Part shown: positions 19,604 through 37,619 of the stretch, piece after piece
How the letters are laid out: every line of letters starts with the position of its first letter
Position numbering within the stretch: position 1 is the stretch's first letter
DNA from: Sulfurimonas sp. SAG-AH-194-C20
GTDB taxonomy: Bacteria > Campylobacterota > Campylobacteria > Campylobacterales > Sulfurimonadaceae
Direction: 5' to 3'
Assembly: GCF_029215975.1 (NCBI RefSeq)
Contig: NZ_JAEMVD010000008.1
Span: 1-48,551 of the forward strand
DNA length: 48,551 nucleotides
The notes under the pieces: generated by a model
The model's input: only the letters and a program-made list of their open reading frames with translations
The model's database searches: none
What the model was told of the DNA's origin: nothing
Made by a program: the position numbers and the translations under genes

Positions 19604-19706
19604 CTCCTTTTCTACATATATTTTTTTATTTATCCCCCTATAATTGTAACTATTTATGATATAACTCTACATAATCAATAAATTATTGTTTTTAAAGGAT
19701 ATACAT

Positions 19707-20132
19707 TTGAGTTATACATCATGGTTCAAAGAACATGCACAAAAACACAAGGTCATAGTTACTAAACTCATGGCAGAAAACTACACAAAAACACAAATAA
19801 TAGACTACTTTGATTTTGAAAATATGCTAAACGCAGAGCCTGACTTCTGTCCTCTGTATAAAGACAATAAAAAATGCCACGACATGGAAAAGCTCAACTG
19901 TTACCTCTGTGCCTGTCCAAACTTTCGCTTTGATGATGAGGGCATAAAAAAGGTACAAATAAATACTCAGTACAGCTTTTGTGACATCGAGTCAAAAGAT
20001 GGACGCCAAGGTGTTTATGGAGATAAAATCCACCAAGACTGCTCAAAATGTGGCGTTCCCCATCACCGCTCTTATGTTGAAAAGAACTTTGACCTTGAGT
20101 GGACTAAAGTTATGAAGCAGTGTACACTATAA
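19707..20132 (+). CDS. Cys-rich small-domain protein of the cobamide cluster
   Basis: A 141-residue soluble protein with nine cysteines: C48, C57, C65, C68, C70 (in NCYLCACPNF), C92, C112, C115 (DCSKCG) and C139, plus a HH pair at 119-120. This fits the cysteine-rich small domain (I recall PF04071), a probable metal-binding domain found beside or fused to cobamide-biosynthesis enzymes. The TTG at 19707 is the likely start: AAGGA (19695-19699) lies 7 bases upstream, and an earlier in-frame TTG at 19686 would put the site inside the gene. It begins the block kinase/RHH/cobD/cbiP/cbiB with a 3-base gap to the kinase. Role is probably an Fe-S or zinc accessory to aminopropanol-phosphate synthesis; unproven. 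Confidence 0.75.
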   Translation: MSYTSWFKEHAQKHKVIVTKLMAENYTKTQIIDYFDFENMLNAEPDFCPLYKDNKKCHDMEKLNCYLCACPNFRFDDEGIKKVQINTQYSFCDIESKDGRQGVYGDKIHQDCSKCGVPHHRSYVEKNFDLEWTKVMKQCTL

Positions 20133-20135
20133 TCA

Positions 20136-20915
20136 ATGGGTGTTAAAAGAGCTCTTACACTTTCTCAAGTTAAAACACTTTTTCCCTCTTACACCTTTTC
20201 AAGCCTTATACCAAGTACTAGCGGTGTTATGGACACAACATACATCTCAGATAAGTATGTTATAAAGTTTTATGAACGCGACATAAAAGAGAAAATCTCT
20301 CTTGATGCAATGCTCTTGGAGCATTTATCAGATGGAGGATTAAATGTGCCACAACTTCTTGCCCATACAGATGGATGGTACCTCTATGATAAGCTTAGGG
20401 GTAAAGTTCCTAAAACCATACATCTTTTTCACATTCAAGCACTTGCCCGTTTTATGGCGAGGTTTCATGCCAAAGGGCTTCATTGTAGTGAAGATTTTTT
20501 AAAAAGTTATGCCATAAAAGATACACTTCTAAAGATTAAACGCAGTAACTATCGTTTTTATAAAGAGCTTGAAATTTTGAAAGACTACAAACCTAAGAAT
20601 GATGGTTTTATCCATGGAGACCTCTTTAGAGACAACACTGTTTTTGATGGACAGACAATAGGAGTCTTTGACTTCATAGATGGAGGTAATGGCTCTTATG
20701 TTTTTGACATCGCAGTAGCCCTACTCTCTTTTAACACTTCTAAACGCAAATCCTACATAAGAATTTTTTTAAACACTTATAACCAAACTGCTGCTAAAAA
20801 GATAAGTCAAAAAGAGCTTTTAGATACCATAAAAATTGCCTCCCTTTTTTATGGAATGCTGCGTATTTCTGAACAAAGTGATGTTAAAAGAGCAAAAGAG
20901 TTGATATTTTGGTAA
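20136..20915 (+). CDS. APH-fold small-molecule kinase, candidate L-threonine kinase
   Basis: A 259-residue kinase of the aminoglycoside/choline-kinase fold. It has the ATP-lysine strand VIKFYE (K44), the catalytic loop IHGDLFRDN (H160-N167) and the metal motif DFIDGG (D179, D182). The loop is the one seen in type II homoserine kinase (ThrB2), whose substrate is close to threonine. It lies 3 bases after the Cys-rich gene and upstream of cobD, where threonine-O-phosphate is needed. PduX, the known Salmonella threonine kinase, is a GHMP enzyme and is not seen here. I infer phosphorylation of L-threonine (or serine) for CobD; homoserine kinase remains the main alternative. Short for ThrB2 (about 310). 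Confidence 0.8.
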   Translation: MGVKRALTLSQVKTLFPSYTFSSLIPSTSGVMDTTYISDKYVIKFYERDIKEKISLDAMLLEHLSDGGLNVPQLLAHTDGWYLYDKLRGKVPKTIHLFHIQALARFMARFHAKGLHCSEDFLKSYAIKDTLLKIKRSNYRFYKELEILKDYKPKNDGFIHGDLFRDNTVFDGQTIGVFDFIDGGNGSYVFDIAVALLSFNTSKRKSYIRIFLNTYNQTAAKKISQKELLDTIKIASLFYGMLRISEQSDVKRAKELIFW

Positions 20916-20924: not shown

Positions 20925-21131
20925 ATGAATATATCCATAAACCAAGATAATTATGAGAACCTTGAAAACTTTAAAAAGATTCTCAAAAAAGACGAATCAA
21001 GCATAATAAATGAAGCCCTTGAAGTCTACTTTAATGCACAAAACAAAATACTATTAGAAAAAAATCTTGATAACGAAAATGCTATGACAAACTTAGACTT
21101 TGATGAGTTTTGGGATGATGTAGAGATATGA
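20925..21131 (+). CDS. Small ribbon-helix-helix-like protein
   Basis: A 68-residue protein. Residues 2-6 (ISINQ) can form the RHH strand, followed by two helices (about 8-18 and 22-38, DESSIINEALEVYFNAQ), the pattern of CopG-type DNA-binding or antitoxin proteins. The rest is acidic. No toxin gene is adjacent: upstream is the kinase and downstream cobD, which it overlaps by 4 bases (ATGA). It may be an operon regulator or an orphan antitoxin. It has a leaderless-type -10 box of its own. The fold call rests on pattern only. Confidence 0.65.
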   Translation: MNISINQDNYENLENFKKILKKDESSIINEALEVYFNAQNKILLEKNLDNENAMTNLDFDEFWDDVEI

Positions 21132-22129
21132 AACATGGTGCAAACATATATAAATATGCCAAAAGAATTGAGTGTGACCCAGAGGAGATAATAGACTTCT
21201 CTTCAAACATTAATCTCTACCAACCAGATATAAACTTCTCATTCTCAAGTAAAGAAGTAGCACAGTACCCAGATAGTGAGTATAAAGACTTTCGTGAGTT
21301 TTTAGCGCAAAAGTATGCACTTAAAAAGAGTCAAATAGCTCTCTTTGGTGGTGCAACAAGTGCCATCTATGAGCTTTTTGCTTCACTGAAACGAAAAAAT
21401 GTCTTTTTGTATGCACCTCTGTATGGCGAATATGAAAAGGCAGCACTCAAGACAAAAAAGAACATCTATAAAATCAACCGCATAGAAGATGAAACACAGC
21501 CCCCACTTGATGACTCCATAGTAGTTTTTGTCAATCCCTCTACACCAGAAGGCACTTACTATAAAAATATAAAAGAACTTATGACTAAATGGATGGAACT
21601 TGAGTGTACTATCGTGCTTGATGAGAGTTTTTTAGAGTTTGAAGCGCTGGCATCCATGCGTCAAGAGATAAACAACTATAAATGGCTCTATATCATTCAC
21701 TCTTTTTCTAAGTTTTACTCTTGTGCAGGTGTGCGAGTTGGAGCGATTTTTTCACATAAGAAAAACATCCAAAAACTTTCAACCCCACTTTGGCATCTCT
21801 CAAGTCTTGATGTAAACTTTCTCACAAAGCGTTTATCTGATGAGAGTTTTGAGAAAAAAAGTCGAGAACTCCACAAAATACAAAAAGAAGAACTAACAAA
21901 CATACTAACAGAGTCTAAACTCTTTACAGAGATAGTCGAGAGTGATTCTAACTTCATCCTAACATATGCAACTAATGGTGAAGAACTTTGGGGAAAACTT
22001 TTAGAACAAAAAATACTTGTGAGAAAATGTGCAAGTTTTGACTACCTAAACAACAACTGGCTGCGTTTTGCTGTAAAAGATGTAGCATCGCATAATGCAC
22101 TTAAAGAGGCTCTTCTTGCACTCTCTTAG
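21128..22129 (+). CDS. cobD: Threonine-phosphate decarboxylase-like PLP enzyme (CobD)
   Basis: A 333-residue fold-type I PLP enzyme of the CobD/HisC family. CobD decarboxylates L-threonine-O-3-phosphate to (R)-1-amino-2-propanol O-2-phosphate, the linker of the cobamide nucleotide loop. The N-terminal HGANIYKYA..DFSSNIN is typical of CobD; the PLP lysine is K195 in HSFSKFYSCAGVRVG; D165 would contact the pyridine nitrogen. The usual NPNNPTG is NPSTPEG here (136-142), an unusual variant. It overlaps the RHH gene by 4 bases and cbiP by 14. A relative in Sulfurospirillum handles serine phosphate to make nor-cobamides, so linker choice is open. Confidence 0.85.
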   Translation: MKHGANIYKYAKRIECDPEEIIDFSSNINLYQPDINFSFSSKEVAQYPDSEYKDFREFLAQKYALKKSQIALFGGATSAIYELFASLKRKNVFLYAPLYGEYEKAALKTKKNIYKINRIEDETQPPLDDSIVVFVNPSTPEGTYYKNIKELMTKWMELECTIVLDESFLEFEALASMRQEINNYKWLYIIHSFSKFYSCAGVRVGAIFSHKKNIQKLSTPLWHLSSLDVNFLTKRLSDESFEKKSRELHKIQKEELTNILTESKLFTEIVESDSNFILTYATNGEELWGKLLEQKILVRKCASFDYLNNNWLRFAVKDVASHNALKEALLALS

Positions 22130-23504
22130 TATCTTTGGAACAAGTAGCGATGCAGGGAAATCTACTCTCTCTTTTGCTATCACTTATCTGCTTCATAAAC
22201 GCGGCATAAAAGTAGCTCCATTTAAAGCACAAAATGTCTCAAACAACTCCCAAGTGACTGACCTAGATAGTGGTGAGATAGCTATTCCTCAGTTTTTTGC
22301 GGCTGAGGCTATTGGGCTTAAAACTAGGTCTGCGTTTAACCCCATCCTTTTAAAGTCAGGGGGGAAATCACGGGCGCATATGATTGTCAATGGTAAAAGT
22401 GTTGGTAACACTGATGTTTGGGAGTACTATCGTAACATCAAAAAGCTCCAACCTATCGTTAAGACTGCGTTTACTTCTCTCCAATCTGAGTTTGAGTGCA
22501 TAGTTGCAGAGGGTGCAGGTAGTCCAGTTGAGTTAAACCTAATGAGTAAAGACCTCTCAAACATATATGTAGCAGATGAGTTTAACACTAAAATAATTCT
22601 TGTCGCAGACATACAACGAGGTGGTGTTTTTGCTTCTATATATGGCGTTTATAACTTACTTCCTAACAAACTTTGTAAAAACGTTATAGGTGTTGTTATA
22701 AACAAGTTTCAAGGGGATATGTCTCTCTTTGATGAGGGTGTAAAAATCATCCAAAACGAGTTTAAAATTCCTGTTTTAGGAGTTGTCCCTTTTAAGCCTT
22801 TTAATCTTGGATTTGAAGATTCACAGTCTCTTATGAACTACTCTCAAGATACAAGAAATGCCATCATAACTGTGGGTGTCATCAAACTTCCTCATATCTC
22901 AAACTTTACAGACTTTGAGCCTCTTGTAGTAGATGAAGAGATTGAACTGCGTTTCATCACCTCTGTGAGTGAGATGAGTTCATGTGATCTTATAATACTC
23001 CCTGGAAGTAAACGAGTTATAGATGATTTGTCTTGGCTGAGAGAGAGAGGATTTGAGAAAAAACTTAGCTCTAAAAAAACTCTAGTAGTGGCTATATGTG
23101 GTGGTTACGAGATGATGTTTGAGCAGATACTTGATGATGAAAAAGTAGAGTCTGAGTTCAAGGTTGTGACTGGATTTGGACGACTTAAAGGTGCTGTTAC
23201 CTTTGCACAAGAGAAGATTGTCAAAAAAGGCTCTTACAATATATTTGGCATGATGGTCGATGGGTATGAGATACATAATGGCATCACTAAAAAGCGCTGT
23301 AAAGAGGCAAAAAACCTCTATGGAACTTTCATTCATGGACTCTTTGATAATGATGTTATGAGAGAGTATATCTTTAAGCAGATAAATGAAAACTACAAGG
23401 GCTATAACTTCAAAGAGTACAAGAAAAATGCTATCGCTGAGTTTTCTCAACATATAGATAAACACATAGATATGCAAGTCGTCATAGATGCTTTAAATGA
23501 CTAA
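22116..23504 (+). CDS. cbiP: Cobyric acid synthase
   Basis: A 462-residue glutamine- and ATP-dependent amidotransferase that amidates positions b, d, e and g of adenosylcobyrinic acid a,c-diamide. The N-terminal P-loop-like IFGTSSDAGKST and the C-terminal glutaminase with C328 (VAICGGYEM) and H407 (TFIHGLF) are intact. It is a little shorter than the usual 480-510. The start is TTG at 22116: AAGAGG ends 6 bases before it, and translation from it begins MHSLSIFGTSS as expected, whereas an upstream ATG at 22095 lacks a site. It overlaps cobD by 14 bases and cbiB by 8, so all three are coupled. Confidence 0.93.
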   Translation: MHSLSIFGTSSDAGKSTLSFAITYLLHKRGIKVAPFKAQNVSNNSQVTDLDSGEIAIPQFFAAEAIGLKTRSAFNPILLKSGGKSRAHMIVNGKSVGNTDVWEYYRNIKKLQPIVKTAFTSLQSEFECIVAEGAGSPVELNLMSKDLSNIYVADEFNTKIILVADIQRGGVFASIYGVYNLLPNKLCKNVIGVVINKFQGDMSLFDEGVKIIQNEFKIPVLGVVPFKPFNLGFEDSQSLMNYSQDTRNAIITVGVIKLPHISNFTDFEPLVVDEEIELRFITSVSEMSSCDLIILPGSKRVIDDLSWLRERGFEKKLSSKKTLVVAICGGYEMMFEQILDDEKVESEFKVVTGFGRLKGAVTFAQEKIVKKGSYNIFGMMVDGYEIHNGITKKRCKEAKNLYGTFIHGLFDNDVMREYIFKQINENYKGYNFKEYKKNAIAEFSQHIDKHIDMQVVIDALND

Positions 23505-24339
23505 CATTTTCATAACTGTTTTTGCTTACGTTATAGACAGAGTGTTTGGTGAGTTGACTTTTGTAAAGCACCCTGTGATATTTATTGGGGAGCTTATATC
23601 TTACTTTGAGAGAAGGTTTTATAAAGACAGTATTTTTAGGGGTGTCTTACTTTTAGCGTTTGTACTCTCTACTACTTTAGTGTTTTCATTTTTAAGTGTC
23701 TATCTTCTACATCTACTCCCTACTTTTTTAGACATCATCTTTACTTCACTTATTGCCTCGATGTTTATAGCCCATAATATGCTCAGAGATGCCGTTGCTG
23801 GAGTTACAACAGCAGATGACAAACATCATGCCATATCTATGCTTGTAAGTCGAGATACTAAAGACTTGAGTGAGAGTGATATATATAAGGCTACCATTGA
23901 AACTTACGGAGAAAACCTAAGTGATGGAGTTATCGCACCAACTCTTTTTTTACTACTCTTTGGACTTCCCGGCATAGTTTTTTACAAAACAGTAAACACA
24001 CTTGACTCAATGGTAGGCTATAGAAATGAAAAGTATGAGAACTACGGAAAAGCTTCAGCTATCTTAGATGACATACTAAACTACTTTCCCTCGCGTTTAA
24101 CTGCCCTACTCATCATGTTTTTAGGCAAACAAAAAAATCTTTTTGCCTTTTATGAAGACGGTAAAAAACATGACTCTCCAAACGCAGGGCACCCCATAAC
24201 TGCAATGGCATTAGTCCTCGGTGTTAAACTCGGTGGAGACACTTCCTACTTTGGTAAACTCAAGAAAAAAGCGAGTTTTGGAACGGGGAGAACAACTTTA
24301 ACTACTGATGATGTTCAAAAAGCTCTTAATCTTTTGTAG
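23497..24339 (+). CDS. cbiB: Adenosylcobinamide-phosphate synthase
   Basis: A 280-residue inner-membrane enzyme that joins adenosylcobyric acid to aminopropanol phosphate (or aminopropanol). Family hallmarks are DRVFGELTFVKHPVIFIGELI at the start, a DLSESDIYKATIETYGENLSDGVIAP block, FYKTVNTLDSMVGYRN, and SPNAGHPITAMA near the C terminus, with about four TM segments. Length is near the norm of about 300-320. It overlaps cbiP by 8 bases. Its 3' end overlaps the convergent lipoprotein gene by 14 bases. Confidence 0.94.
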   Translation: MTNIFITVFAYVIDRVFGELTFVKHPVIFIGELISYFERRFYKDSIFRGVLLLAFVLSTTLVFSFLSVYLLHLLPTFLDIIFTSLIASMFIAHNMLRDAVAGVTTADDKHHAISMLVSRDTKDLSESDIYKATIETYGENLSDGVIAPTLFLLLFGLPGIVFYKTVNTLDSMVGYRNEKYENYGKASAILDDILNYFPSRLTALLIMFLGKQKNLFAFYEDGKKHDSPNAGHPITAMALVLGVKLGGDTSYFGKLKKKASFGTGRTTLTTDDVQKALNLL

Positions 24340-24815: not shown

Positions 24816-25871
24816 ATGAAAACATATAACATTTTTACAAACCAAGAGACTACACTTCCAGAGGGAAAAGCAGACTTTTTACTCGCTGCCTCAGTGACAA
24901 AAACATGTGAGATAGAGGGTATAACACAAGCGGGAATCCCTGGTAAAATTCCTTATACTCCTACACTTGATGCTGAGTTTATAAGCACACAAAAACTCTT
25001 CTCTATGCCTGAAATTGCTGAGACACCAAGTGGAGTTCCTACTCCTGCGCTTATCACTAGAGCAGTTCACAACCTCCATGAATTTTCTGCCATTGAGATT
25101 CTTGACTTAGGTTTAGAGATAAGACCAGAGCAAACGCAGTTACATAACTTTGACATCAAACCTTCAAACTCCATCGCAACAGGTGCAGGTATAGATGCTG
25201 AGGAAGTTTTTGCAAAAGGTATGGCATTTGGTAGAAGTTACGACCTCAAAGGCTCATACCTTATCTTAGGGGAGTCTACTCCAAGCGGGACAACTACTGC
25301 CACTGCCACTGCTCTTGCCTTAGGCTATGACGTAGCAGATGACTTCTCTTCAAGTTTTTTAAATGTTCCTGATGATGTACGGAGTCAGACTATAAACGCA
25401 GCACTTGCTTTAGTAGATGAGAGTATGACTACCTTCGAGAAACTCTCGCTTGTAAGTGACAATATGCTCATCTTCTGTGCAGGTTTTTTACTCGAAGCGA
25501 GTAGACGTTTTCATGTAGTTCTTGCAGGTGGTACACAGATGGCAGCTTGTCTTCTTGTAGCTGACAAACTCCGTGAAGATATCCTTATGCGTTTAAAGTC
25601 AGAGAATATCACCATCGCCACTACTGCCTGGGTAGCAAACGATACTAACTCAAACATCAAACATATACTAGAACAACTCTCCTACACTCCAAATGCGATA
25701 TATACAGAGTTTTCTTTTGCAAACGCAGAGATACCTGTTCTTAAAAAATATGATGAGGGTGAAGCAAAAGAGGGTGTTGGTGCTGGTGCATGTCTAGCTT
25801 ATGCAAACACTAACTCACTCACTAACAAAGATGTACTAGAAGCCGTTGAGCTTATAATGTACACGATGTAA
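24816..25871 (+). CDS. cobT: CobT-family nicotinate mononucleotide phosphoribosyltransferase, archaeal type
   Basis: A 351-residue protein of the CobT superfamily, closest to the archaeal-type group (TIGR00303-like). The reaction activates the lower base (dimethylbenzimidazole or a purine) to its alpha-ribotide using nicotinate mononucleotide. Seen: AGIPGKIPYTPTLDAE at the N terminus, ATGAGIDAEEVFAKGMAFGR, LGESTPSGTTTATATALALGYD (glycine/threonine phosphate-binding), LAGGTQMAA, and GVGAGACLAYA at the C terminus. It stands alone downstream of the cbiP-cbiB block, on its own probable leaderless promoter. Which base is used cannot be read from sequence. Confidence 0.87.
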   Translation: MKTYNIFTNQETTLPEGKADFLLAASVTKTCEIEGITQAGIPGKIPYTPTLDAEFISTQKLFSMPEIAETPSGVPTPALITRAVHNLHEFSAIEILDLGLEIRPEQTQLHNFDIKPSNSIATGAGIDAEEVFAKGMAFGRSYDLKGSYLILGESTPSGTTTATATALALGYDVADDFSSSFLNVPDDVRSQTINAALALVDESMTTFEKLSLVSDNMLIFCAGFLLEASRRFHVVLAGGTQMAACLLVADKLREDILMRLKSENITIATTAWVANDTNSNIKHILEQLSYTPNAIYTEFSFANAEIPVLKKYDEGEAKEGVGAGACLAYANTNSLTNKDVLEAVELIMYTM

Positions 25872-37531: not shown

Positions 37532-37619
37532 TGGTGGTCCCGGTGAGATTCGAACTCACGGTAGATTGCTCTACACAACCTTTCCAAGGTTGCACCATCG
37601 GCCACTCGGACACGGAACC
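37532..37619 (-). tRNA. tRNA-Ser (anticodon GGA)
   Basis: 88 bases including an encoded CCA. The acceptor arms GGTTCCG and CGGGACC pair (one G-U), the D arm has GTCCGAGTGGCCGA, the anticodon stem CAACC/GGTTG encloses TTGGAAA with anticodon GGA, a long variable arm follows (typical of class II tRNA-Ser), and the T arm is GTGAG TTCGAAT CTCAC. The discriminator base is A, where many bacterial serine tRNAs have G. Confidence 0.96.

Follow-up and report, generated by a model that had tools for sequence, protein, structure and literature searches.

An APH-fold kinase in cobamide gene clusters of Campylobacterota as a probable L-threonine kinase

Gene content of the cob locus

The window analyzed here, i.e., the whole stretch of 48,551 nucleotides, comes from Sulfurimonas sp. 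SAG-AH-194-C20, whose genome (1.63 Mb) is 66% complete. A set of cobamide-related genes follows one another on the forward strand, with one opposite-strand gene between cbiB and cobT:

19707..20132, forward strand, Cys-rich cob-locus protein (141 aa, TTG start; the ORF call starts at 19686)
20136..20915, forward strand, APH-fold kinase, proposed L-threonine kinase (intact ORF, ATG start, 259 aa)
20925..21131, forward strand, reading frame of 68 aa with no Pfam match
21128..22129, forward strand, cobD, L-threonine-O-3-phosphate decarboxylase-like aminotransferase (333 aa; TIGR01140, 218.5 bits)
22095..23504, forward strand, cobQ/cbiP, cobyric acid synthase (NF001989, 464.7 bits, cut-off 273)
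23497..24339, forward strand, cbiB, adenosylcobinamide-phosphate synthase (TIGR00380, 215.8 bits, cut-off 165.9)
24816..25871, forward strand, cobT-like phosphoribosyltransferase (TIGR00303, 240.5 bits, cut-off 240; NF003372, 347.3 bits, cut-off 306)

The Cys-rich gene is the first upstream neighbor of the kinase gene and ends 3 bp before it, the 68-aa frame follows after a gap of 9 bp and shares 4 bp (ATGA) with the start of cobD, and this tight spacing around the kinase marks a single operon. The original prediction had placed the kinase between a Cys-rich gene and cobD, which is correct on the upstream side; downstream, the 68-aa frame lies in between, so that the window kinase does not adjoin cobD directly. 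Direct adjacency to cobD was found in loci L006, L012, L119, L120, and L122. The predicted motifs HGDLFRDN (residues 160-167) and DFIDG (residues 179-183) are indeed present in the intact frame of the kinase. The 68-aa product is acidic and, by its appearance only, may be a small antitoxin-like protein. No cobalamin riboswitch was detected in the window at the Rfam gathering threshold, and the sole Rfam match is one tRNA gene (37535-37619, reverse strand).

The best family for the window CobD was TIGR01140, with a score under the cut-off of 290.55. This cut-off was reached by no CobD of 64 Campylobacterales genomes (best score 259), suggesting that automatic annotation may miss or misname CobD in this order. 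The presence of cbiC elsewhere in the source genome (G000:C45) indicates de novo cobamide synthesis.

Family and predicted structure of the kinase

The window kinase matched the Pfam APH family (PF01636) with 63.6 bits (cut-off 23.2) and carries the APH catalytic motifs HGD(x4)N and DFx, in which H160, D162, N167, and D179 are invariant. HGDLFRDN and DFIDG had been taken as a signature of the APH-type homoserine kinase ThrB2, a reading that has to be given up: they are a general APH catalytic signature, and the protein scored 54.2 and 77.1 bits on the homoserine-kinase models TIGR00938 and NF003558, whose cut-offs are 255.9 and 271. Four other kinases from cob loci scored 38-86 bits on the same models, whereas five proteobacterial ThrB2 controls reached 284-421 bits and a sixth, divergent control 202-206 bits.

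Residue conservation separates the two groups further. N33, N35, N197, R219, E224, and R238 (window numbering) are 89-99% conserved in 73 ThrB2 sequences and less than 20% conserved in 35 cob kinases, while all 35 cob kinases have Lys44, the lysine by which APH enzymes are expected to hold ATP, at a position where 66 of the 73 ThrB2 sequences have Thr. H160, D162, D166, N167, D179, Y215, and R243 are conserved in both groups. Because N197 and R238, which may contact the amino-acid backbone, have been lost, binding of an alpha-amino acid by the kinase is not guaranteed. A quick tree separated the 73 ThrB2 proteins from 37 cob-type kinases, which grouped as a single clade (SH-aLRT 100, stem length 1.43); this clade belongs to Campylobacterota and is placed beside ThrB2, and the Sulfurimonas record L122 groups among the kinases of the window's genus. 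Relatives outside Campylobacterota, among the matches listed, were of ThrB2 level only. Judged from its sequence, the window kinase falls outside the homoserine kinases as they are usually defined.

The AlphaFold2 model of the window kinase (pLDDT 89.5, pTM 0.87) was closest to the solved homoserine kinase 2ppq from Agrobacterium (Z 23.6, rmsd 2.5, 249 residues). The next structure had a Z of 20.2, and N-acetylhexosamine kinase, APH, and choline kinase were at about 20 or below. As far as the predicted structure goes, the common fold does not fix the substrate, but the closest structure is that of an enzyme acting on a small amino acid.

Linkage to cobamide genes

A profile built from 14 sequences was searched against 299 genomes of the order, and 39 of them contained a match that reached 150 bits and counted as strong. 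CbiB was encoded in 62 of the 299 genomes, namely 37 of the 39 with the kinase versus 25 of the 260 without it (Fisher p = 3e-28), and, within the genus of the window, in 10/10 versus 2/14 (p = 7e-5), this within-genus comparison being the one exception among Fisher tests that ignore shared ancestry. The kinase gene lay no more than 12 kb from cbiB in 27 of the 39 cases, and six more were located in cbi clusters or beside cobD or cobT. The comparison of cob-locus neighborhoods in Campylobacterota that had been suggested as a check thus supported the predicted association, as 33 of 39 kinase genes have cob/cbi neighbors. The other six had no cob neighbor within the stretch examined, some of them being near contig ends, and one kinase-bearing genome (G163) has no recognizable CobD and a weak CbiB match.

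The kinase gene adjoins cobT in L007 and L009-L011 and cbiB in L004 and L013, and in L014 it lies beside a corrin methylase gene and cbiK. Such variation in gene order implies that the link between kinase and cob genes has been kept through rearrangement. The linkage is not due to chance, and the kinase is assigned to the cobamide pathway. No fusion of kinase and cobD was seen among long open frames.

Homoserine kinases and other candidate kinases

A second, APH-type homoserine kinase (ThrB2) could also lie in cob operons by coincidence, and ThrB2 is in fact the nearest group by HMM, by solved sequence and fold (2ppq), and by tree position. A search for another thrB, proposed together with the original prediction, had a mixed outcome: none was found in the 66%-complete source genome, but 294 of the 295 good genomes of the order do carry a separate GHMP-type thrB, which argues against a homoserine kinase. 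On this distribution, the low scores of the cob kinases on ThrB2 models, and the replacement of six ThrB2-conserved residues, the explanation was rejected; the occurrence of the kinase also tracks cob genes, not threonine synthesis, and coincidence appears very unlikely.

PduX of Salmonella (EC 2.7.1.177) shares the proposed reaction and the pathway position upstream of CobD. It is a GHMP kinase, and the Pfam search of the window kinase returned the APH domain and no GHMP domain (PF00288); given the different folds, the two proteins are not homologous. In 35 cobamide genomes, PF00288 matches nearly always numbered two and had the positions and lengths expected for ThrB and IspE, so that no clear PduX candidate shows among them. 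Two genomes (G004 and G070) have a third GHMP kinase besides ThrB and IspE. Nor did a PduX-type substitute turn up among these matches in kinase-free cobamide genomes. The cob loci also encode CobU (PF02283), CobS, CobC, and, in some cases, a BluB-like protein, which fills these particular steps of the pathway.

Threonine phosphate requirement and CobD types

The 64 genomes with CbiB or the kinase were divided by the presence of CbiC, taken as de novo capacity, and by CobD type. Among de novo producers (with CbiC) whose CobD is of the Thr type, 20 of 22 have the kinase, compared with 19 of 37 among the genomes that lack CbiC (p = 0.002). The latter genomes, presumed salvagers, could speak for an alternative cobinamide or alpha-ribazole kinase that serves corrinoid or lower-ligand salvage. 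Many of the loci with the kinase nevertheless encode CobU, a cobinamide kinase/guanylyltransferase; the kinase occurs most consistently among de novo producers rather than salvagers, and its nearest relative (2ppq) acts on a small amino acid, all of which makes a salvage role scarcely credible.

The kinase was found in none of five genomes of genus g24, which are de novo producers with a divergent, SMUL_1544-type CobD (174 bits; 392 aa in L098), whereas G191 of the same genus has both an ordinary CobD and the kinase. The gene order in L098 (reductive dehalogenases, cbiB, SMUL_1544-like CobD, cobU, cbiP, cobT, and cobS) equals that of the published norcobamide cluster of Sulfurospirillum multivorans. 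The cobamide linker of S. multivorans is described as being without the threonine-derived methyl group, with SMUL_1544 held responsible (PMC4585668). Threonine phosphate would accordingly be unneeded in that organism. SMUL_1544 is reportedly fed by serine phosphate from primary metabolism. Of all the arguments for threonine as the substrate, the contrast within g24 is the strongest.

The same contrast bears on the proposal that the enzyme is a linker-arm kinase with another substrate, such as L-serine (yielding ethanolamine phosphate and norcobamide), ethanolamine, or free (R)-1-amino-2-propanol. The genomic evidence indicates the linker-arm step equally in that case, choline/ethanolamine kinases are among the APH relatives (Z about 19-20), and the pocket is unlike that of ThrB2. 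Against it, the kinase is missing exactly in the genomes with SMUL_1544-type CobD, where a route from serine or through ethanolamine phosphate would be expected, and it accompanies ordinary CobD, which needs threonine phosphate. Moreover, an aminopropanol kinase would make CobD redundant, and ThrB2 rather than choline kinase is the group nearest to the window kinase in both sequence and fold. Another linker-arm substrate is therefore considered unlikely, and L-threonine is preferred.

Cobamide producers without the kinase

Two de novo producers, G217 (locus L199) and G277 (L198), of a family (f9) that we take to be Arcobacteraceae, have an ordinary CobD and a cbi cluster and no kinase in the profile search. 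Searches of their cob and cbi loci by tblastn and hmmsearch for an overlooked or degenerate kinase gave none, and neither genome has a PduX candidate. The cluster order in G277 is the same as in the kinase-bearing genome G132, the kinase alone being missing. These genomes imply that another source of threonine phosphate exists or that the kinase is not always needed. In addition, roughly one in two genomes that encode CbiB but not CbiC has no kinase. Kinase-free genomes may use a bifunctional CobD, another kinase, or imported precursors. Reading frames near cobD in such genomes resemble, by eye, metallophosphatase, MarC-, transglutaminase-, and SDR-like proteins and are not kinases.

The Cys-rich protein

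Homologs of the Cys-rich protein are 57-71% identical and share many invariant Cys and His residues; the match to PF04071 was sub-threshold (14.3 bits versus 27). The locus had been suggested to be a split version of the methanogen CobD, in which the kinase would be a subunit of a complex with CobD and the Cys-rich protein. The three genes lie side by side, or almost, in the window, L003, and L006, and the Cys-rich gene is highly conserved. However, it is retained in many cob loci that have no kinase and is often separated from the kinase where both occur, which led to the rejection of a kinase-specific trio. In genome G035, the Cys-rich protein and a CobT-like phosphoribosyltransferase form a single-frame fusion (L110:13380-14861, also L015), hinting that the Cys-rich protein is active near the lower-ligand step and not with CobD. 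CobD of Methanosarcina mazei (MM2060) is reportedly a single PLP-fold protein with a metal-binding Cys-rich tail, and its kinase activity is said to reside within the CobD protein itself, leaving no APH domain to split off. The split-enzyme idea thus found no support, and such a complex is highly improbable. The Cys-rich protein is a general cob-locus protein rather than a specific partner of the kinase. The S. multivorans cluster is likewise described as encoding a "cysteine-rich domain protein" (SMUL_1548), for which redox activity has been suggested.

Proposed function and comparison with known systems

The window gene is proposed to encode an ATP-dependent APH-fold L-threonine kinase of the cobamide pathway, a reading to which a probability of roughly 0.73 is assigned, in which operon, clade, and co-occurrence are observed, the fold is predicted, and substrate and reaction are inferred. 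The core of the original prediction, an alternative L-threonine kinase, is borne out by the phylogenetic profile, the linkage analysis, the absence of a PduX candidate, the presence of a separate thrB, the loss of ThrB2 residues, and the Sulfurospirillum contrast.

The enzyme would come from a stock shared with the ThrB2 (APH-type) homoserine kinases, with a changed substrate pocket and the canonical APH core retained (Lys44, Asp162 of the HGDxFxDN motif as the catalytic residue, and Asp179). By analogy with APH enzymes, Lys44 may bind ATP, Asn167 and Asp179 may bind Mg, and Asp162 may act as the base. The side-chain hydroxyl of L-threonine would then attack the gamma phosphate to give L-threonine-O-3-phosphate, which CobD would decarboxylate to (R)-1-aminopropan-2-ol phosphate, and CbiB would join this product to adenosylcobyric acid. 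The pathway steps downstream of threonine phosphate are established (reviewed in PMC7242693).

Known threonine kinases of cobamide synthesis comprise PduX, BluE, and the bifunctional methanogen CobD. BluE, described as an L-threonine kinase of Rhodobacterales that is non-orthologous to PduX (PMC8123684), is set beside the present kinase by description only; the proposed reaction is the same and the taxonomic range differs. CobD of M. mazei also provides threonine phosphate; by contrast, the kinase of Campylobacterota is a separate protein, and the Cys-rich gene is independent of it. ThrB2 (2ppq) is similar in fold, in APH catalytic motifs, in being the source of the closest sequences, and in acting on an amino-acid side-chain hydroxyl. 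Unlike ThrB2, the cob kinases (about 18-26% identical to it and some 60 residues shorter) fall far under the curated cut-offs, have the invariant Lys44 and the six replaced residues, and are encoded in cob loci of genomes with a separate thrB. No report of an APH-type threonine kinase of cobamide synthesis was found in a search outside which many subscription papers lay, and such a report is not proven to be absent.

It seems fairly probable that a further, independently evolved family of APH-fold L-threonine kinases, derived from ThrB2-like stock, fills the aminopropanol-arm step across Campylobacterota, and that presence or absence of the kinase, together with CobD type, predicts cobamide versus norcobamide in de novo producers. 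The kinase step that feeds CobD is a long-standing gap in reconstructions of the B12 pathway. A survey of 11,000 bacterial species omitted pduX and cobD from its prediction rules because they are unannotated in most verified producers, and it described signature genes for telling cobamide from norcobamide producers as absent (PMC6461909). If the proposal is true, the gap would be filled for a phylum frequently encountered at vents and in sediments, a homoserine-kinase stock would have been recruited for a new amino acid, and a genomic marker would help to tell the two types of producers apart.

APH-fold kinases of another kind were also observed in two genomes of the order (L018 and L019), where they lie beside a membrane protein that looks like a vitamin transporter of the PnuC/PnuT type. 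These kinases are probably thiamine-kinase-like and unrelated to the cob genes.
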